This document shows positions 4,796 to 21,492 of a DNA stretch of 55,034 bases, one piece after another (position 1 is the stretch's first letter; every line of letters starts with the position of its first letter). The stretch is from Nitrospinaceae bacterium (GTDB taxonomy: Bacteria > Nitrospinota > Nitrospinia > Nitrospinales > VA-1). A program made the position numbers and the translations under genes. The stretch is from contig JAJDBH010000124.1 in assembly GCA_029261455.1 (NCBI GenBank), positions 1 through 55,034 of the forward strand. Reading direction: 5' to 3'. The notes below the pieces were generated by a model. That model had not been told where the DNA came from and made no database searches. It saw nothing but the letters and a program-made list of their open reading frames with translations.

Positions 4796-5875
4796 CTAAA
4801 AATCATTAATGCAAATTGCTGAGACAGTATAGGAAAATGCAGCAGGATCAGTGAACCCTCTAACAGCCCATTGGTCGATTGTTGATGGACCAGAATCAAG
4901 AAGAATTTCTCCATCGACACCTCCATTCATTATGACACCTCCACCGACTACTACTTTCCCGGAAGGGCAATTTGCGGATTTAGCATAAAAAACGGAACCT
5001 GAGTTGGGAAATGTTTGTTTGATTAATTCATATCCCTGTGTTGGCACCGTTGGAGCCGTTGTCAAATCAAAAGAAGAAACGCCATTGCTGTTCAGGAGGT
5101 GGAAGCGGTGTGCTTGCTGCCCACTGGCAATGATGCTTGACGGGACCCAGATATCGAGGGTGTTGGAGTCTAAAACTACAACATTGTCTCGCTGTGACTG
5201 GTCCGGATGAGTGTTCAGCAGGGTATTGAAGTGGGTTATATTCGGTGGGGTGGTCCCATCGGCAGAAAGTCCTTCACCCTCTATTATAAATGCTTCGTAA
5301 GCTGGGACTTGAGTCTCAACACAATTCACGGGTTGCCCTGAACTGTCTGTTTCACAAGTTTCTTCGGTAAAGAAAACAGGGATTTGGTTACAGAATTCTG
5401 TCCCTGAAGGGTCTGTAGGGTCCGTTGCACAATGTTCTTCGAAGGAAATGGGTACTGGAATCTCTTGACAGAATGTCCCAATAATGTTCGTGAAACAGCT
5501 CTCAACTGTTAGTGGGGGGAGTTGACTGATGCGCCTTATTTCAACGTTATCGTTACCGTCGTTGCCTCCATTCGCGCCAGCTACACCCTGTGGACCTGTT
5601 GGACCTGCGGGACCTGTTGCACCTGTTGCACCGGGGGCACCATCAGCGCCATTAGTGCCTGGCAACCCTTGAATACCTTGTGGGCCTGGATCGCCCTGTG
5701 GTCCAGGTGCCAACTCTATATTAGCCAGATCCTGTTCCAGTGAGTCTATTTCCGCCTGAAGAGCGGCTATCTGGGCAGGGATTCCACTATTTCCTCCGTT
5801 ATTACCGCCACCCCTTCTATTCTTGATAACTTTTTTGATTTTGACCTTTTTCTTTAAAGTTATCGTGCCGTTTTT
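4796..5875 (-). CDS. Collagen-like secreted protein, main body (frame broken upstream)
   Basis: The frame is open from a TAA at 5876-5878 down to 4796, and no ATG lies at its beginning; only a TTG at 5713 could start it internally. From the N-terminus it holds a lysine-rich stretch, a GGGNNGGN linker, a short coiled coil (IAALQAEIDSLEQDLANIE), and about 15 Gly-X-Y collagen triplets (GPQGDPGPQG and so on). A cysteine-rich segment follows, then a C-terminal globular domain ending in CPSGKVVVGGG...VSAICIND, a module common at the ends of secreted bacterial proteins. The lysine-rich start matches the end of the signal-peptide frame at 5860-6045, so the two are one gene (about 416 residues) split by a frameshift at the A7 run 5871-5877. 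Confidence 0.75.
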   Translation of the reverse strand, partial: KNGTITLKKKVKIKKVIKNRRGGGNNGGNSGIPAQIAALQAEIDSLEQDLANIELAPGPQGDPGPQGIQGLPGTNGADGAPGATGATGPAGPTGPQGVAGANGGNDGNDNVEIRRISQLPPLTVESCFTNIIGTFCQEIPVPISFEEHCATDPTDPSGTEFCNQIPVFFTEETCETDSSGQPVNCVETQVPAYEAFIIEGEGLSADGTTPPNITHFNTLLNTHPDQSQRDNVVVLDSNTLDIWVPSSIIASGQQAHRFHLLNSNGVSSFDLTTAPTVPTQGYELIKQTFPNSGSVFYAKSANCPSGKVVVGGGVIMNGGVDGEILLDSGPSTIDQWAVRGFTDPAAFSYTVSAICINDF

Positions 5876-6045
5876 TTATCTATGGTGACCTTTTTCTTGA
5901 TCGTTTTTTTAACGACCTTTTTTTTCTGTTGGGCTTGTGCGTGGGTAACGAAGCTCAGGCCATTCGAGAAACCTGTGAAGTTTATAGTCAGAAATAAAAA
6001 GGAGATGCAAAAAATATTAAACAGGCGCGAAGTAATAATTTTCAT
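5860..6045 (-). CDS. Signal-peptide N-terminal piece of the collagen-like protein
   Basis: This 61-codon frame starts at an ATG with a strong ribosome binding site (AAGGAGAT, 6054-6061). It codes for a signal peptide ending at about THAQA-QQ, then a lysine-rich tail (KKKVVKKTIKKKVTIDKK) and a stop. The lysine-rich pattern continues in the -1 frame as TLKKKVKIKKVIK, so the stop results from the A7 run at 5871-5877. One extra A, or a -1 slip on AAA AAA A, would join it to the collagen body. Sequencing error, slippage-based phase switching or a real null allele cannot be told apart here. Confidence 0.65.
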   Translation of the reverse strand: MKIITSRLFNIFCISFLFLTINFTGFSNGLSFVTHAQAQQKKKVVKKTIKKKVTIDKKTAR

Positions 6046-6061
6046 GAGGGCAAATCTCCTT

Positions 6062-6418
6062 TATTCTTGAAACATTAGTTTAGGTAAATTTGAAAGCTTA
6101 TACTGCTTGTGGTTTTACTTGTCTATTTAAATTTACATGCTTTTACTAGCACTATTATTTGGTATGGGCAAGTGATTAATAGTCAACTATTGTTGCATTT
6201 AGGTTGGTTTTAGTCTTGGTTGGGGGAAATACTTTGATAGGCCGATAGTTATTCCTTTTGAGAAACCACTAATTTTTTTACATAAAACTGAAAATATCGG
6301 ATTGCTAATATTGTTTTTTGGCTTCACTAAACCAATGATTTTTGCTTTCCGGCAGAGCAGGGTCCATGCTATTGTGGATGCTTCTATAAACTTGTTTAAC
6401 TTTATGTGGGTGTAGTTA
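6062..6418. other. Intergenic region between collagen-like gene and fxsA
   Basis: This AT-rich stretch holds the promoters for two divergent genes, but I could not pick out a clear -35/-10 pair. No gene, repeat or structured RNA is visible. Confidence 0.3.
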
Positions 6419-6814
6419 ATGTCTTTACCGATTACGGCTATTTTTGCTCTGGGAACAGGGATTGAACTTTATGGATTAAAATATGTTAGCGATGGTATTA
6501 GTATTCTGAATACCGTTTCGTTGATCATGTTCACTTTTCTAGTGGGAATTGTTGTCAGCCGAAGTTATGGCAAAGAGGTCTTTGAGAAAATGCAGAGGCA
6601 ACTGAAATCACGCGAAGCCCCTGGTGACGAGGCACTGAATGGAGCCGTAATGGGAGTGGCCAGCATGCTTCTCATTACTCCGGGTGTGGTGACTGATCTG
6701 ATAGGACTCCTAATCATGACCCCGCTAACCCGTGGAATCTTCAAGAAAATAGCCTTGAATATTGCCAAGGATAGAATCCAAACAGGACAACCCTATTTCT
6801 TTTTTAAGGATTAG
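6419..6814 (+). CDS. fxsA: FxsA family membrane protein
   Basis: The 131 residues match the FxsA family in length and layout: two N-terminal hydrophobic helices, a cytoplasmic stretch with RQLKSREAPGDEALNG, and the hallmark third segment ASMLLITPGVVTDLIGLLIMTP followed by the C-terminal R-G-x-F. FxsA is an inner-membrane protein whose overexpression relieves exclusion of phage T7 by F plasmid; its normal role is unclear. It is the first gene of a plus-strand run, nine bases before the methyltransferase. Confidence 0.88.
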   Translation: MSLPITAIFALGTGIELYGLKYVSDGISILNTVSLIMFTFLVGIVVSRSYGKEVFEKMQRQLKSREAPGDEALNGAVMGVASMLLITPGVVTDLIGLLIMTPLTRGIFKKIALNIAKDRIQTGQPYFFFKD

Positions 6815-6823
6815 CGGATTGCA

Positions 6824-7600
6824 ATGGCTCCTGAAGCCGAGATAAACCTTGTTTGTAAGATAAAGCGATGGCTCACCGGCTGTACGCTGAGTGCTTTTTT
6901 TCCTCCCCGAAACCTCAGAGATGAACTGCTGGATCTTGATGAAGCTCCTTATGAGGAGGTCCGTGATAGTTTGCAGGATGTTGCTACTGTCAACCGCTAT
7001 TTGAGCGGATACCGGGTTCTGCTCCGACATGTTGAACCTTTCTTGGAATCCCATAAAGCCAATCGCCCGTTCAGAGTGCTGGACGCGGCCACGGGGTCTG
7101 CCGATCAGCCTGTAGCACTCGTCAAGCTAGCGCGAAGGATAGGGGTCCCTATTCAAATTATTGCTATTGATATCAATGCCAAGATGCTCAAGCTGGCTAA
7201 AGAGGAGATTGCCTCTTATCCCGAGATTCAACTGGTGCAATGCGATATTCTTTTGCTGCCTTTTAAGGAGGACAGCTTCGATTTGTCGGTCAACTCTTTA
7301 TCCCTGCATCATTTCAGCTGGGAGAAGGTGGTGGCGATTTTGCGCGCCATTTATAAGGTCGGGAAATTGGGCATGGTGGTGAACGATTTGCACCGGAGCC
7401 GGATAGCGCATGCTGTGATTTTTGTTTTGACTCGGATTTTTACCCGCAACCGACTGACCCGTTATGACGCACCGGTTTCGGTGATGAACGCTTTCACACC
7501 TAAAGAATTTCGAGAGCTGGCTCGGCAGGCGGAAATTGAACCTCATGAAATCCACCGACACTTTCCCTACCGCATCGCTTTGCTTGGACGCAAAACATGA
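6824..7600 (+). CDS. Class I SAM-dependent methyltransferase
   Basis: A Rossmann methyltransferase core runs from about residue 80. It has LDAATGSADQP as the SAM-binding loop, IIAIDIN as the acidic second strand, VQCDILLLPF as motif II and DSFDLSVNSLSLHHF as the post-strand-4 segment. The N-terminal 75 residues are a helical cap (FPPRNLRDELLDLDEAP) seen in methyltransferases that sit beside geranylgeranyl-reductase-like flavoproteins in polyketide or lipid-modifying clusters. The stop overlaps the next start by four bases (ATGA), so the two are co-translated. The substrate is probably a lipid or quinone-like molecule; this is inference from the partner gene. Confidence 0.8.
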   Translation: MAPEAEINLVCKIKRWLTGCTLSAFFPPRNLRDELLDLDEAPYEEVRDSLQDVATVNRYLSGYRVLLRHVEPFLESHKANRPFRVLDAATGSADQPVALVKLARRIGVPIQIIAIDINAKMLKLAKEEIASYPEIQLVQCDILLLPFKEDSFDLSVNSLSLHHFSWEKVVAILRAIYKVGKLGMVVNDLHRSRIAHAVIFVLTRIFTRNRLTRYDAPVSVMNAFTPKEFRELARQAEIEPHEIHRHFPYRIALLGRKT

Positions 7601-14992: not shown

Positions 14993-16339
14993 ATGAGCGA
15001 CACGAAATATAGCGGCATGGCAAAAAAAATTGCCGCGTCAAAAGGGAAACTAGGGGTTTTATTACCAGGAATGGGAGCGGTGAGTTCAACACTTATCGCT
15101 GGAGTCTTTCTGGTGAATTCGGGTCATTCCAAGCCTATCGGGTCGGTGACGCAAATGTCACGAATCCGTCTGGGTAAAAGAGATAACCCACAATACCCCT
15201 TCATTAAAGATTTCGTTCCTCTTGCTGGTTTAACCGATATCGAATTTGGTGGCTGGGATATTTATGAAGAGAATTGCTATGAGGCCGCTCTGACATGTGG
15301 CGTTATCGATAAGCAGGAGCTTGACCTAGTGAAAGACCAGCTTGAAAAGATAAAGCCCTGGTCTGCTGTGTTCGATCCTTCTTTTGTGAAAAACCTGACC
15401 GGAACCAATATAAAAAAAGCTCCCAATAAAATGGAGCTGGCTAAACTTTTGATGAAAGATATTGAAAACTTCAAAAAAGAAAAAGGTTTGGAACGCGTGG
15501 TGATGTGTTGGTGTGGGTCGACGGAAGCTTATCAGGACGGTATGGATGATGAAGCCTACCAATCTTTGGATGCGTTTGAAGCGGCACTGGAAAACAATCT
15601 TGCCAGCATTCCCCCTTCAATGATCTACGCTTATGCGGCACTGAAAATGAACGTTCCCTTTGCCAACGGTTCTCCCAACCAGACGGTGGATTTCCCGGCT
15701 CTGGTCGAACTATCTATAAAAAACAACACCCCTATCGGCGGCAAAGATTTCAAAACAGGGCAAACCCTGATGAAAACCATCGTAGCTCCAGGGCTTAAAT
15801 CCAGAATGCTGGGGCTCGATGGCTGGTTCTCCAGCAATATACTGGGCAACCGGGATGGGGAAGTGCTGGATGATCCAGACTCCTTTCGATCCAAAGAGGT
15901 CAGCAAAGGCTCGGTTTTAGAAAGCATCCTGCAAGACGATCTTTATCCAGACCTCTATGGCGATTACTACCATAAAATCCGCATCGAATATTATCCGCCA
16001 AGAGGAGATGCAAAAGAAGGCTGGGACAATATCGATATCAAGGGTTGGTTGGGTCAAAAAATGCAACTGAAAATCAATTTCCTGTGCCGCGATTCTATTC
16101 TAGCGGCACCTGTAGTTCTAGACCTGGTCTTGTTTCTAGACCTGGCGCAACGAGCGGGAATGAGAGGGGTGCAAGAATGGCTTTCGTTTTACTTCAAGTC
16201 CCCCCAATGCCGACCAGATCTTCAGCCGGTGAACTCACTCTTCGATCAAGACGAGAAACTAAGAAATACCCTGAGAATCATTATGGGTGAAGAAGTCATT
16301 GACCACTCCGGTCTGGACTACTACGAGAATAAAGGCTAA
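14993..16339 (+). CDS. Inositol-phosphate synthase (INO1 family)
   Basis: This NAD-dependent isomerase turns glucose 6-phosphate into inositol phosphate. The 448 residues include the nucleotide-binding start KLGVLLPGMGAVSSTLIAG, the middle VPFANGSPNQTVDFPAL, the catalytic-region segment GKDFKTGQTLMKT and the later lysine-bearing SHYHK-like segment DYYHKIRIEYYPPRGD. Domain order and length fit the family; it is nearer the longer bacterial type than the short actinobacterial one. It supplies the inositol unit for the neighbouring cytidylyltransferase and CDP-alcohol enzymes. An in-frame ATG with GAGGGAGA ten bases upstream supports the start. Confidence 0.92.
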   Translation: MSDTKYSGMAKKIAASKGKLGVLLPGMGAVSSTLIAGVFLVNSGHSKPIGSVTQMSRIRLGKRDNPQYPFIKDFVPLAGLTDIEFGGWDIYEENCYEAALTCGVIDKQELDLVKDQLEKIKPWSAVFDPSFVKNLTGTNIKKAPNKMELAKLLMKDIENFKKEKGLERVVMCWCGSTEAYQDGMDDEAYQSLDAFEAALENNLASIPPSMIYAYAALKMNVPFANGSPNQTVDFPALVELSIKNNTPIGGKDFKTGQTLMKTIVAPGLKSRMLGLDGWFSSNILGNRDGEVLDDPDSFRSKEVSKGSVLESILQDDLYPDLYGDYYHKIRIEYYPPRGDAKEGWDNIDIKGWLGQKMQLKINFLCRDSILAAPVVLDLVLFLDLAQRAGMRGVQEWLSFYFKSPQCRPDLQPVNSLFDQDEKLRNTLRIIMGEEVIDHSGLDYYENKG

Positions 16340-16576
16340 CCGGGCAACGCCCGGTGGATAATTGGAAATAGCTTTGTCTGGCTGGCAAAAATATGTCTCG
16401 GCTCAACGAACCGTTGCTATCTGCTTCCCCTTGATAGGCGGATTGAGGGCTTTCCTTGTGCTTTCCGATTATTTCCAAAAATGAATTTAGCATCTAAGGC
16501 TAACTCATTCTTAGCTCCCTTTAAAACATATAGTCAATAGTGGACTTGACCCCTAGACCTAGATTTTAAAATACAT
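16340..16576. other. Structured intergenic region at the edge of the RT-PolA island
   Basis: A six-pair hairpin, CCGGGC-AAC-GCCCGG (16340-16354), follows the inositol-phosphate synthase stop directly and may end its transcript despite lacking a T run. TTGGAAATA (about 16362-16370) and TATTTCCAA (about 16473-16481) are inverted repeats enclosing about 100 bases, which contain a further hairpin CAACG-AAC-CGTTG. This nesting could be a small structured RNA or a decayed element end. Composition becomes strongly AT-rich after about 16500. Confidence 0.4.
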
Positions 16577-18187
16577 TCAACTATCAAACTTATCAAAAGT
16601 CACTTTAGGGTTGATGCTTGGGCATGTGTTTTTAAAAGTTTCTATAAATATTTCCTGAATTTGTTTTTGAATTTTATCCTTTTTGTCCTTTGGCACTTGA
16701 TATAAGACAGCGTCATGCATTGGAACCAAAAATTGGGCCTCTAAGATTTCTTCATTAACTCTCAAAATCGCTTTTTTCAAAATGAGGGAAGCTGTCCCTT
16801 GAATTCTTTGACTAATCACCCACCTTTTTTCAGAATTTAATATTTTTGAGTTTGGAGGGTTCTGCCTCCATCTGTTATTACCTAGTCGTGTTGAAACACA
16901 GTTATTTTCAATTAATGAATTATTTAAATCATTCTTCCATTTCCCTAATTTTTCAAATTGGTCAAAAAAGCGGTCTAACTTATTTTCTATATCAAGCTTC
17001 TCTGACTTACGAGATTCAGCTATAAGCTTAGTAAGGCCTTTTTTGTCCATACCATATGAAAAAGCCAGAAATATTTTTTTAGCTGTTTCTCTATCACCCT
17101 TATTCCCAAATAAGTTTTCACTTAAGCTAAGATAAATATCACCACCGTTATACATGTTAATAAGTTGCTCATCTTTAGAATCATCTGCCAAAATTCCCGG
17201 TTCAAATTGGCTGTAATCCGGATACAAAAACACCATCCCCTTTTCCGGTTTTATGATTTTTCTTGAATTTTTTCGTATGTTTTGAATTAAAGGTGATTTA
17301 ACTAAAATTCGCCCGGTGACTGTACCCATTGAGTCAAAAATAGGGAAAGTCCTTTTTTCACCAATTGCCCCAAATCTCAAAAGAAACGTCTTGTCCTTCT
17401 TAAGCTCATTAAATTCTTTAATAAGTTTTACTAAACGATTAACAGAGCAGGAAATTTCCAAATATTCGTGAAAAAGAGGAGCACTTACCTTTTCAGCTAG
17501 AAAGGAAAGACCCTCACCAATAAATTTATTTTTTAATTCGGCAAAATTATTTAGGTCATTTAATTGCCACTCTTTTTTCAAATCCCTGCTTATTTGATTA
17601 AATCGATTGTCAATATTATCCAATTGTTTTGAAGCAAAGTTTGAATTCAGGCAGATCCCCAAGCATTGCCTTTGCGCTAAAATATTTTGAATCGGTTGCT
17701 CAATTTCAAAATACCGATTAAACTCATTCTTCGCTTTTAATTTCTCCAATTGAATCTTCCAAACATCTTTTATCCTACTAGCAAACTCTTCCAGCAATTC
17801 TCTTACAACTTTGGTTTCTGGGAGTGCTCTTTTCCCATTTTGGATTGACTCTATTGTCTCCATTATTGCTAGATCGGGGTTTTGCTTTCGTAAAAGACTC
17901 CAGGGCAAATTATTACGATACGACTTACTTGAGTCTCCGACTAACAATTTTTCAATCTGGCAGATATCCAAAATTGACTCTGGAAATCGAATTTTTTGAG
18001 CCTTAAAAAAGGGGACTAAGGAGTGATAGTTGTAAGTAATAATTTGGGTTTTTAATAAAGACAACTCTTCAAGGGAGATAGGACGAACTGAACCATTACA
18101 AGAGATGTGCAGGTTCGGCTCCTTTAAGTTCTGTGAAAAAGGGTTAAATAAGTAAACTAAGATATTATTTTCGGAGTCATGAAACAT
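16577..18187 (-). CDS. Stand-alone family A (PolA-type) DNA polymerase paired with a reverse transcriptase
   Basis: A complete Klenow-type polymerase domain fills about residues 159-536. FEIEQPIQNILAQRQCLGI opens it, TGRILVKSPLIQNI (291-304) matches the TGRLSS..LQNIP block, and DYSQFE is motif A (D324 metal ligand, E329 steric gate). RETAKKIFLAFSYG is motif B, with R366, K370, Y378 and G379 in the classic spacing, QGTASLILKKA follows, and MHDAVLYQV is motif C (H491, D492). Differences from E. coli Pol I: the glutamate after HD is alanine and the motif B phenylalanine is leucine. There is no 5' nuclease. The first 150 residues resemble a 3'-5' exonuclease only faintly (IITYNYHSLVPFF, SILDICQIEKLL) and lack clear catalytic acids. 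The start overlaps the RT stop by 11 bases, so translation is coupled. Second-strand synthesis on RT product is a plausible role. Confidence 0.88.
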   Translation of the reverse strand: MFHDSENNILVYLFNPFSQNLKEPNLHISCNGSVRPISLEELSLLKTQIITYNYHSLVPFFKAQKIRFPESILDICQIEKLLVGDSSKSYRNNLPWSLLRKQNPDLAIMETIESIQNGKRALPETKVVRELLEEFASRIKDVWKIQLEKLKAKNEFNRYFEIEQPIQNILAQRQCLGICLNSNFASKQLDNIDNRFNQISRDLKKEWQLNDLNNFAELKNKFIGEGLSFLAEKVSAPLFHEYLEISCSVNRLVKLIKEFNELKKDKTFLLRFGAIGEKRTFPIFDSMGTVTGRILVKSPLIQNIRKNSRKIIKPEKGMVFLYPDYSQFEPGILADDSKDEQLINMYNGGDIYLSLSENLFGNKGDRETAKKIFLAFSYGMDKKGLTKLIAESRKSEKLDIENKLDRFFDQFEKLGKWKNDLNNSLIENNCVSTRLGNNRWRQNPPNSKILNSEKRWVISQRIQGTASLILKKAILRVNEEILEAQFLVPMHDAVLYQVPKDKKDKIQKQIQEIFIETFKNTCPSINPKVTFDKFDS

Positions 18188-19688
18188 GGCTTTGGATATC
18201 TCGAAATATTTCTGAAGGTTTTACTGGTGGAAGAATATCAATATATGTTCCATTAAAATTGTTTTTTAAGATTCTATAAGTCCCCGCCAATTCTTTTTTA
18301 ACGTGAGGTCTTACATGGTGTTTAATGATTTTCTCATAATCTAATTCGTGAACTGCTATAAGAGCGTTTCTCTGGGCCAAGAAGCTGTTTAGGCTCGAAA
18401 AGTTTGTTGCAACATACTCACGATCATGATTTGATCCGCAACCACCTAAATACAAACAGGCTCCCGCTTTCTCAGCCTCATTCCGGCTTTTCTTAATTGT
18501 AGATTTGGCTAGGTCAATTAAACTTTGATCTTTGAATTTTTTATATACTAAAATTTGCCATATATTATAAATATGCCAACCATAAATCCTTTTTTCTGGA
18601 TCACAAATAATTTCCTTAATTCTGTTTAAATTTCTTTTTGTTAAATGCACAGACTTCAAATATCTTGCGAAAATATCTACTGAGTAAGGTTGCTCCAGTA
18701 ACTCCTCAATTATTGACTCTGTTATTCCCCTAAAGTTAAACTCTTTCCTTATCGAGTCATAGCGTGCAATTTTTTCAAGCCTATAAATGCAAAATCTAAA
18801 CTCCCGCTCATGGGTTCTGTTTTTTCTTATTTGTTTTAGCGTTAGCTTTCTTAACAGGGGTAAAGCTTTTTGAATGTTTAGCAATTTTTTTGATTCCAAA
18901 AGACTGTCTATCTGATCAACCTCCCTATTTGGCTTATGTATAAAGAGTTCGATATTCTTATCATCTTCTTTCATAATAAATGTTTTTTGTCCGTTTACAT
19001 TTAGCCCTATCTTCCTCAAGTTTATAATTATTTCCTTTAATATTTTCCTTGCCTGAAAGACGTTGTCGCAGACAACCCTGATATCGTCCATGTAACGGAA
19101 ATATGAATATCCCTTTTTAACCATTTGAATATCTATCTTGCTTAGGAGTACATTTCCCAAAAATGATGAAGCATCTCTGTTTTGTGGAATTCCAACGCCT
19201 TTTGATTTTTCCCACTTTTTCAATAATCTAATCAACAGATTGGCAGCACACTTAATATCGTTCAACTGTGAGTGTTTTAATCCTAAGTTTTTTGAGTTGA
19301 ACAAAATTGCCTTTTTGACATCTGAAAAACGAATATTTTCATAATAATTTTGAACATCTGTAACTAGCAAAACTTTTCCCGTTCCATCAAGTTCAGCCGC
19401 AATATCGCCTTCAAATCGCATCCAAGCTTTTATAGCGTGTTGAAAAATGTACCTGCTGTTTTTTTGTGGGGCTTTTCTATGGCTATATACACAATTTGGT
19501 ATGGATTGGTCTAAATGGGAAATTAATATACCAGCTATTCCTTGATATATTAATCTGTCTAGAAAACTGGTAATCAATGAATAACGTAGAGTAAAGCCTT
19601 TTTTGGGGATGTTGAATTGTTCTGATTCTGACGGGGCGTATCTTTTGGAAGGATTTGCAATATAAACTTTAAACTTCTCTTTTACCAC
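18177..19688 (-). CDS. Reverse transcriptase with helical C-terminal extension (defence/unknown-group type)
   Basis: RT motifs run in order: KKGFTLRYSLITSFLDRLIY, YSHRKA, VLLVTDVQNYYENI (motif A, D111), GVGIPQNRDASSFLGN (motif B, 165-179) and YFRYMDDIRVV (motif C, YMDD at 199-202), then KIGLNVNGQKTFI. Residues 255-503 are helical with repeat-like segments, similar in style to the alpha-repeat tails of Abi and unknown-group RTs; no maturase, HNH or integrase domain is present, which argues against a group II intron. The start given is GTG at 19688. The frame stays open upstream to an ATG at 19814, apart from one TAG at 19731-19733, and the extra part looks like real coding sequence. The PolA-type gene follows with an 11-bp overlap. 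Confidence 0.87.
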   Translation of the reverse strand: MVKEKFKVYIANPSKRYAPSESEQFNIPKKGFTLRYSLITSFLDRLIYQGIAGILISHLDQSIPNCVYSHRKAPQKNSRYIFQHAIKAWMRFEGDIAAELDGTGKVLLVTDVQNYYENIRFSDVKKAILFNSKNLGLKHSQLNDIKCAANLLIRLLKKWEKSKGVGIPQNRDASSFLGNVLLSKIDIQMVKKGYSYFRYMDDIRVVCDNVFQARKILKEIIINLRKIGLNVNGQKTFIMKEDDKNIELFIHKPNREVDQIDSLLESKKLLNIQKALPLLRKLTLKQIRKNRTHEREFRFCIYRLEKIARYDSIRKEFNFRGITESIIEELLEQPYSVDIFARYLKSVHLTKRNLNRIKEIICDPEKRIYGWHIYNIWQILVYKKFKDQSLIDLAKSTIKKSRNEAEKAGACLYLGGCGSNHDREYVATNFSSLNSFLAQRNALIAVHELDYEKIIKHHVRPHVKKELAGTYRILKNNFNGTYIDILPPVKPSEIFRDIQSHVS

Positions 19689-19814
19689 TTTGTCGTTTAA
19701 TAGATCTTCATGGTTTAGCGGGTCAGGAAACTAATCATCTTTTAAATCTTGCCTTAACCTCCTAGTTAGTAAATCCATGTCAAAAGTAAGGTTTTCAATT
19801 TTTATTTTTGACAT
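19689..19814 (-). pseudogene. In-frame N-terminal extension of the RT interrupted by one amber codon
   Basis: Translation from ATG 19814 reads MSKIKIENLTFDMDLLTRRL and on to KDD, then TAG (19731-19733), then FPDPLNHEDLLNDK, joining the RT at VVKEKF with no frame change. PDPLxxxDLL just before the first RT motif is the kind of N-terminus such RTs usually have, so the annotated GTG start seems too short. A TGG (Trp) to TAG change would explain it. Options are a nonsense mutation, a base-calling error, readthrough, or re-initiation at GTG 19688. The ribosome site before 19814 is weak (GAGAG). Confidence 0.65.
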
Positions 19815-19872
19815 GTTAATGCTCTCAGATCTAGAACTGCATATATATTAAAGAGGTCATATCTTGAATTAG

Positions 19873-19917
19873 CAAAGGTTAATCATCGCTTGGTGTTATC
19901 TTTTCCAATAACCTTTG
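19873..19917 (-). ncRNA. Candidate structured leader/ncRNA upstream of the RT
   Basis: CAAAGGTTA (19873-19881) and TAACCTTTG (19909-19917) form a perfect nine-pair stem with a 27-base loop, which holds a competing GTTAT/ATAAC pair. It lies 59 bases before the possible RT ATG, inside the 138-base gap after the 85-residue gene. Retrons and several defence RTs carry their template RNA upstream of the RT gene, so this is the first place to look; it could equally be a terminator or attenuator. No transcript evidence is available. Confidence 0.35.
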
Positions 19918-19952
19918 TGGAGCTGGTTTTTAAGAGTTTTAGTTGTGCAGAA

Positions 19953-20210
19953 TTATTTCCATTCGTGACGAACACGACTGAATACTTTATTTTTCTCTCT
20001 CGGGTAGCTTGATAATATATCGTTAACAATGGCATCAAATTCACCTTGTTCTTCTTCTCCTTCAATCTTGAAAGCAGCAAAACAATCTTTTCTAATAGTT
20101 TCACCCATGGCTATTGAATCTTCATCATCTTGATTTTCTGAAAACTTTGATTTAAGTTCTTCATCATGAGTTTTCTCAATAAAATTTATCCACTCAATTT
20201 GTGCGTTCAT
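19953..20210 (-). CDS. Small acidic hypothetical protein (85 aa)
   Basis: I do not recognise it. An ATG is preceded by AAGGGAA at good spacing. The product is soluble, acidic (DEELKSKFSENQDDEDS, KIEGEEEQGEFDAI) and mostly helical, ending in a basic tail SRVRHEWK. It lies between the ferredoxin and the RT on the same strand, so it may be a small partner of either. A 73-codon frame overlapping its end in another register has no ribosome site and is judged spurious. Confidence 0.6.
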   Translation of the reverse strand: MNAQIEWINFIEKTHDEELKSKFSENQDDEDSIAMGETIRKDCFAAFKIEGEEEQGEFDAIVNDILSSYPREKNKVFSRVRHEWK

Positions 20211-20292
20211 TTAAATTTCCCTTAATTACTTCTGTTATGGGTTTAATCACTACAATATTATAGTCGCCCAAGTTGATTTAGGAATATCATTT

Positions 20293-20496
20293 TTACTCAT
20301 ATTTAATCACTTCAACGGGGCAGGCTTCGGCGGCCTTTATGATTTTTTCTTCCAAGCCTGAATAGTCCACTCCTTCTATCACTGTTGCGCCTTTGACCCA
20401 TTTTTCACGCTTTACTTTAAAAACCTCGGGGCAGATACTTTCTGACTTTCCACATGTAATGCAACCTTTCTCAACCCAAACCTTCGTAATTGCCAC
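20293..20496 (-). CDS. One-cluster ferredoxin with a substituted ligand position
   Basis: The start is set at GTG 20496 (MAITKVWVEKG) because AGGGAG sits just upstream; longer frames begin at ATG 20523 or TTG 20529. Single-cluster ferredoxins have C-x2-C-x2-C-x3-CP near the N-terminus and a distant CP. Here the first block reads CITCGKSESICPEVF, so the third cysteine is serine, while the last cysteine is present in ACPVEVIKYE. It may hold a 3Fe-4S cluster or a serine-ligated 4Fe-4S cluster. It follows the TET/JBP-like dioxygenase gene by 81 bases and could be its electron donor, although such dioxygenases normally need only 2-oxoglutarate and ascorbate. Confidence 0.83.
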   Translation of the reverse strand: MAITKVWVEKGCITCGKSESICPEVFKVKREKWVKGATVIEGVDYSGLEEKIIKAAEACPVEVIKYE

Positions 20497-20577
20497 TAGA
20501 CGCTCCCTTATATTTAAAGCCATTAACAAAACCTGTTTTAGGCTTATGCATATTTACCATGCGTTCGTTATTTCTTC

Positions 20578-21492
20578 TTACCCACCCATCGTAGCCAATC
20601 CGTCATCACAATAAGCGACACAAGATAGTCGTGTTCCGTGCCCGATGATGGGTGTTACTCCGTGAAGTTGGCTGCTATTTGCCAGGATAATGTCTCCGTC
20701 TTCTGCATCTATCGCCACTTCCCATCGCGGGAATACTAGATAACCCCCTTGGTATTTACCAACCCGAAACACACACATGCTGGTGAATCCAAACTTCGCA
20801 TCTTCTTTATCAATATGAAACGACATTTGTTTGGTTTCTTCTTCTTGATATTGGTTGGGTGATAGCCCTGTATAAATCCCCATTCTATGGGATTCCTTTA
20901 TATGTTTTTCGCAGAATGACTTTTGCGCTTTATATTTTTCGGGGCACCCTTTTTGGAAAGCAGTTTCATTTATAGAAGAAAGTGTTTGCAAGTTTTCCCA
21001 TCTATCGTGGTTCTCCTTGGCCCATTCTGATAAGTCTATATCACCAGTAACTTCATCCCTCTGGTATCCTAATAATAGTGAGTGCATATCCTGCCCCTGT
21101 GGGTTCTCATTCCATTCGCCCGTTTTTTCGTTTTTGGTGAAAAAAGAATTGGGAGTGTGGAGTTTATAATCTCTCCCTTCTTTCCATCCATATTCCATTT
21201 CCAACTTCTGCTTATCAACGGGGCCAGAACAATTCGCTCTCATATTGGTTGTATCGTCTATGGATGCGAGAGTTCTTTTGATTTCTTTAAAGTCACTACC
21301 CTGATAGCCATTCTTTATACATATGAGGAAGGGTTCCTTATCTCCAGATATAGCTTTAGGCGGGCTAACAATTTGGAAATCTTTTGAGTAGGTAATAACC
21401 TTGCGATATGTTTTGTCGGTAGGGAACAATCCATTCCACTTATCAAATATTTTCTTTTCGCTATGTTCTTTATCTGCAATAAAAGTTTTCAT
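20578..21492 (-). CDS. TET/JBP-like 2-oxoglutarate/Fe(II) dioxygenase
   Basis: The C-terminal half has the double-stranded beta-helix fold of Fe(II)/2-oxoglutarate oxygenases. MSFHIDKED gives the HxD pair (H226, D228), SSQLHGVTPI the distal histidine (H277), and GTRLSCVAYC the 2-oxoglutarate-binding arginine (R288). The segment between, GGYLVFPRWEVAIDAEDGDIILA, fits the TET/JBP style (GG-x-L-x-x-P, then GD). TET and JBP enzymes hydroxylate the methyl group of 5-methylcytosine or thymine in DNA. The N-terminal 200 residues, with TTNMRANCSGP, do not match anything I know. A role on DNA would suit its place beside two polymerases, but a protein or small-molecule substrate is possible. Confidence 0.72.
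   Translation of the reverse strand: MKTFIADKEHSEKKIFDKWNGLFPTDKTYRKVITYSKDFQIVSPPKAISGDKEPFLICIKNGYQGSDFKEIKRTLASIDDTTNMRANCSGPVDKQKLEMEYGWKEGRDYKLHTPNSFFTKNEKTGEWNENPQGQDMHSLLLGYQRDEVTGDIDLSEWAKENHDRWENLQTLSSINETAFQKGCPEKYKAQKSFCEKHIKESHRMGIYTGLSPNQYQEEETKQMSFHIDKEDAKFGFTSMCVFRVGKYQGGYLVFPRWEVAIDAEDGDIILANSSQLHGVTPIIGHGTRLSCVAYCDDGLATMGG

Follow-up and report, generated by a model that had tools for sequence, protein, structure and literature searches.

The UG9 group of reverse transcriptases (RTs) is a group of RT defence systems that has been catalogued but, it appears, not yet studied, and our literature search found no functional study of it. In a 2014 tree it was confined to Proteobacteria (PMC4244168), and Table 4 of the myRT survey lists a PolA-type model, PRK14975, as a neighbour of 94% of UG9 RTs (PMC8934634). 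More generally, the class 1 UG RTs carry a C-terminal alphaRep domain, and the members studied so far synthesize DNA in the absence of any nucleic acid template (PMC13174585). The class 1 systems DRT4/UG15, DRT6, AbiK and Abi-P2 act without a second polymerase, whereas a PolA gene accompanied UG9 in every full-length case that we found. Two other systems have a second polymerase. In DRT3 (UG3 and UG8), two polymerases jointly make double-stranded DNA (PMC13174585), the second one being, unlike that of UG9, another RT, with an ncRNA in addition. DRT7/UG10 resembles UG9 in that an RT works with a second, non-RT polymerase, for which a duplex-like product is described in a preprint as cited in PMC13213688; there, the RT is fused to a primase-polymerase (PrimPol), in comparison to the separate family A polymerase of UG9. 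DRT3 and DRT7 are the nearest working models for the UG9 mechanism.

The locus analyzed here lies on contig JAJDBH010000124.1 of a Nitrospinaceae bacterium. The whole stretch of DNA that was analyzed, hereafter the window, is 55,034 nt long, and the RT and PolA genes are located within positions 16577-19814. The features of the locus are as follows:

16577-18187, minus strand: family A DNA polymerase (PADLOC family RTasPolA), 536 aa
18177-18187, minus strand: overlap of the RT stop and the PolA start, 11 bp here and 8 bp in 20 relatives
18177-19814, minus strand: RT gene of the UG9 group, full frame from a natural ATG, interrupted by a TAG at 19733-19731
18177-19688, minus strand: uninterrupted RT open reading frame (ORF) from a GTG, 503 aa
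19953-20210, minus strand: 85-aa ORF upstream of the RT, without family match
about 16515-20577, no strand: stretch that congeners lack at this site, with the RT, the PolA, the 85-aa ORF and a ferredoxin-like ORF inside

The RT motifs A, B and C, which had been pointed out in a sequence-only reading of this locus, are all intact (DVQNYYEN, GIPQNRDASSF including the GIPQ block, and YMDD), and the motif A aspartate, D111 in the numbering of the 503-aa ORF, becomes D153 if numbering starts at the ATG 19814. The PADLOC results showed that the best match of the RT was RT_UG9_small (E 3.6e-150, 499 bits) with RT_UG9_large second, while the next best group outside UG9 was UG21 with 189 bits (E 2.6e-56); in the genome-wide search the UG9 profile reached 546 bits. 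RVT_1 was the only significant Pfam domain. Other identities were rejected, namely DRT7/UG10 (no fused PrimPol domain by Pfam, and only 62 bits for the RT_UG10 profile), a group II intron RT (61 bits for TIGR04416 in comparison to a cut-off of 300) and a retron RT (37 bits for retron_St85 in comparison to a cut-off of 235). The RT therefore falls inside UG9, a group already described with a PolA partner in both PADLOC and myRT (PMC8934634), which is the very outcome that the sequence-only reading had named as counting against its statement that no RT system with this two-gene core was known. The core is already catalogued and not new. The window pair shares with the described system (PADLOC DRT models; PMC8934634) the RT group, the PolA-type partner, the gene order and the gene overlap, and it differs from the UG9 relatives in its phylum, its 11-bp overlap, an amber stop in the RT and the lack of a C-terminal Tyr-Asp. 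We assign the pair, as a divergent representative, to the UG9 RT and RTasPolA system, a two-gene cassette within the UG/Abi (DRT) class of presumed anti-phage systems, and the window copy is a deep branch outside the Proteobacteria.

The polymerase was matched by PADLOC to RTasPolA (E 1.2e-133), and its sole Pfam domain was DNA_pol_A (9.4e-37), with no 5' nuclease domain found by Pfam, in agreement with its earlier description as a complete Klenow-type polymerase without 5' nuclease. The AlphaFold model (pLDDT 71, pTM 0.75) matched the large fragment of Bst DNA polymerase I over its length. The motifs DYSQFE, R-x3-K-x3-L and HDA were found, and the residues D324 and E329 (motif A), R366, K370, Y378 and D492 were invariant in the family. 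Two changes are family-wide: HDE is replaced by HDA, and a leucine occupies the O-helix position equivalent to E. coli F762. In the N-terminal part, the family alignment showed no conserved Asp-x-Glu or similar 3'-5' exonuclease motif, and we read the protein as a probable templated polymerase without proofreading. The host genome has its own, separate Pol I of 905 aa with HDE and a phenylalanine at the O-helix position, in comparison to HDA and leucine in the RT-associated PolA, which is thus not the housekeeping enzyme. Identity with cellular DNA polymerase I was rejected on the basis of these differences and the lack of a 5' nuclease.

To describe the distribution of the pair, relatives were gathered from plasmids, genome contigs and IMG/VR. 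Conserved adjacency, which the sequence-only reading had proposed to look for in other genomes, was found: the PolA gene lies directly downstream in 20/20 loci with a full-length RT, a count which includes locus L013, where PolA is frameshifted, and locus L014, where PolA has an insertion. The overlap was 8 bp (ATGATTGA and variants) in all 20. Chance adjacency is ruled out by these loci, and the gene pair is confirmed as real, far beyond chance. The expression "fused by overlap", which had been applied to the window genes, holds for the 11-bp translational overlap but not for a fusion of the proteins. A strong RTasPolA match was observed at the RT locus in 14 of the 16 relative genomes, and the cellular Pol I of relative genomes scored far lower with this model than the RT locus did. 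Two truncated RTs (L018 and L020) had no PolA beside them, and the ordinary Pol I was the only RTasPolA match in their genomes. The L018 RT from Ruegeria (5851-7056), a short protein with 36-38% identity to the window RT and without PolA, is possibly a truncated or a sister-group RT.

The relatives are Alpha-, Beta- and Gammaproteobacterial, a phylum different from that of the window, and showed about 31% identity to the window RT and 23-25% to its PolA. Since they are mutually close and, at this identity, distant from the window RT, arguments from their conservation transfer weakly to the window. The UG9 cassette is rare: it was found in one of 77 genomes of the window's phylum, being absent from the other 76, and it occurred only in the seed genome among 385 genomes of one class and likewise among 369 of another. 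No close relatives of the window PolA were found in viral contigs with back-translated patterns; in phages, the PolA search recovered ordinary phage polymerases, while for the RT there were only two weak partial matches. There was also no conserved third gene, as at most 4 of the 108 neighbouring proteins of 17 relatives share a Pfam family, and it is doubtful that the 85-aa ORF of the window belongs to the RT-PolA system.

Comparison of the genomic site showed that in five congeners (G042, G030, G033, G032 and G034) ino1, located at 14993-16339 in the window, is followed by a few hundred bases and then by the RNase D side. At this site G041 has an oxygenase gene alone, and G036 has part of the oxygenase gene, with about 50 bp corresponding to 4.2 kb of the window. 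As several congeners have no such stretch at the site flanked by ino1 and the RNase D gene, we regard the RT-PolA stretch (about 16515-20577) as an accessory insertion at a variable spot; its boundaries are approximate, because a 69-bp part of the 85-aa ORF (20128-20196) adjoins the oxygenase gene in G041. Other UG9 copies are located on mobilizable or conjugative plasmids; intact pairs occur, for instance, on plasmid pDSHI01 of Dinoroseobacter shibae and in Paraburkholderia sprentiae. An accessory, mobile-type location in a variable spot is as expected of a defence cassette. The oxygenase gene itself (20578-21492, minus strand) is 2OG-Fe(II) oxygenase-like, below the Pfam cut-off, and occupies this variable spot in G041 and, in part, in G036, neither of which has RT-PolA there. 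A short ferredoxin-like ORF (20293-20523, minus strand), recognized by eye from CxxCGKSESICP...CPVEVIKYE, sits between the oxygenase gene and the 85-aa ORF and is missing from the G041 version of the site.

With respect to mechanism, the motif A aspartate and YxDD are invariant across the UG9 family alignment, which argues that RT catalysis is under selection. A structure model of the window RT, predicted reading through the stop, was of modest confidence (pLDDT 70.6, pTM 0.63) and consisted of the RT domain followed by an all-helical part at 297-519. Its best Foldseek matches were DRT4, UG15, DRT6, Abi-P2 and AbiK, which aligned over about 450-490 columns, nearly the whole length, with modest TM-scores of about 0.35-0.46. 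By this prediction UG9 may share with DRT4/UG15, DRT6, AbiK and Abi-P2 an RT domain with a C-terminal helical-repeat domain, and because the nearest fold matches are template-independent enzymes of the Abi/DRT4 type, the model would favour untemplated over RNA-templated synthesis.

Another feature, which was found here and is outside the published definition of UG9, is the end of the RT. The RTs of all 20 full-length relatives end in Tyr-Asp-stop, with 18 distinct tails, whereas the window RT ends in SHVS. Because the PolA ATG overlaps the Tyr codon, the second and third bases of this codon are constrained; the first one is not, yet it is T in 20/20. In DRT3b, DNA is attached to Y666 in the C-terminal tail, residues 622-667 (PMC13174585), and the constant UG9 tyrosine may be likened to this priming residue. 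We consider it a lead for protein priming and not proof, since the sequences are related and the window copy is without it, but a constant C-terminal tyrosine makes a single-residue test of protein priming possible.

Our overall explanation, which we favour tentatively and with somewhat less than even confidence, is that the UG9 RT makes a DNA strand, probably protein-primed and free of an RNA template, which PolA duplexes or extends in a presumed anti-phage role. An RT with a putative C-terminal helical-repeat domain like that of AbiK and DRT4 would make the strand, in typical members probably without an RNA template; in these members the RT protein would probably also serve as the primer, the candidate residue being the penultimate C-terminal tyrosine; the co-translated PolA, which is without nuclease motifs, would copy the strand into duplex DNA or extend it; and the product may be toxic to the infected cell or titrate away phage factors. 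Either the product or its synthesis would harm phage growth. Beyond the two enzymes being catalytic and always paired, we infer each of these steps, including the priming, the lack of a template, the second-strand synthesis and the defence role. The strict pairing with a nuclease-less PolA predicts a duplex product and two essential active sites. The more specific proposal, that the UG9 RT uses its C-terminal tyrosine to prime untemplated DNA, which its dedicated co-translated family A polymerase then takes over and makes duplex, is rather doubtful in our estimate; if true, it would be a third, distinct defence route to duplex DNA after DRT3 with its two RTs and DRT7 with its RT-PrimPol.

The sequence-only reading had proposed PolA as the second-strand enzyme of an RNA-to-dsDNA module. 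A coupled role as second polymerase is reasonable, since a dedicated PolA is kept with the RT in all 20 full-length relatives, while the RNA part of the proposal is weakened by the predicted fold and because no conserved structured RNA was detected next to the genes. Such an RNA-templated version, in which the RT would copy a short cis-encoded RNA to cDNA and PolA would make the second strand, has in its favour that class 2 DRT systems employ cis ncRNAs (PMC13174585), that the fold matches also include DRT9, an RT which depends on an ncRNA, and that four Rhodobacterales relatives share a conserved, sharply bounded block of about 245 nt upstream of the RT. However, this block was conserved to no greater degree than four-fold degenerate RT sites and folded no better than shuffles (z-scores of about 0), no compensatory pair was found among 62 by RNAalifold with only 4 sequences, Rfam gave no RNA family in the window, and template-independent enzymes gave the best fold matches. 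A cis ncRNA thus received no support from Rfam, from upstream and downstream conservation, from the consensus fold or from the comparison with synonymous sites and z-scores, although the negative is weak evidence because the sequences are so few and diverged. We regard the RNA-templated version as unlikely. It is still less probable, and in our view quite improbable, that PolA works on phage or host DNA with the RT as a sensor or scaffold, or that the pair serves in DNA repair or mobility and not in defence. PolA does keep all residues required for templated synthesis, and plasmid copies adjoin replication and transfer genes and integrases, but the invariant RT active site points to selection on RT catalysis, and with so few neighbours sharing a Pfam family an integrase or recombinase gene is not a constant partner.

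Whichever of these mechanisms applies to the family, the window copy may be decayed, a reading which is compatible with all of them. The upstream coordinate 19814 given in the sequence-only reading is a natural in-frame ATG, but the TAG at 19733-19731, codon 28 counted from this ATG, breaks the frame and had been missed. The family profile search of the whole genome reported "1 TAG" inside a match covering profile positions 2-536, and the position is Trp in 17/17 relatives aligned with the window RT. Because the match runs through the TAG and all aligned relatives have Trp, this RT copy is either decayed, or restarted at GTG 19688, or carries one wrong base in the draft assembly (234 contigs, 84.5% complete). 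Recoding is not suggested, since TAG serves as a regular stop in the window, where it ends 7 of the 36 ORFs of at least 200 aa. Given the early amber stop, the window copy may be non-functional, and the stop makes it a poor experimental candidate. That it is a recently decayed remnant, with the first 27 residues removed by the amber stop and no functional RT made, we place only slightly short of an even chance. The otherwise invariant Trp, the ordinary use of TAG as a stop, the missing C-terminal Tyr-Asp and the decayed UG9 loci elsewhere (truncated RTs lacking PolA at L018 and L020, and a PolA frameshift at L013) are consistent with decay, whereas both reading frames are otherwise uninterrupted for more than 1,000 codons and keep their catalytic residues, the single base in a draft assembly may be wrong, and GTG 19688 is a possible start.

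Some minor observations were made at the other UG9 loci. In Plastoroseomonas hellenica (L013, 7448-9014), the frameshift splits PolA into two frames, and in Vreelandella lutescens (L014, 7436-9253) the polymerase domain of the UG9-associated PolA contains about 90 extra residues, inserted just upstream of the conserved KEKRSAVSQVVQGTASLI block. Among the 108 UG9 neighbours (loci L005-L023), PADLOC identified a retron-type RT, ZacA/ZacB and several methyltransferases, and four integrases were identified with Pfam; some UG9 copies lie in defence islands or integrative elements.
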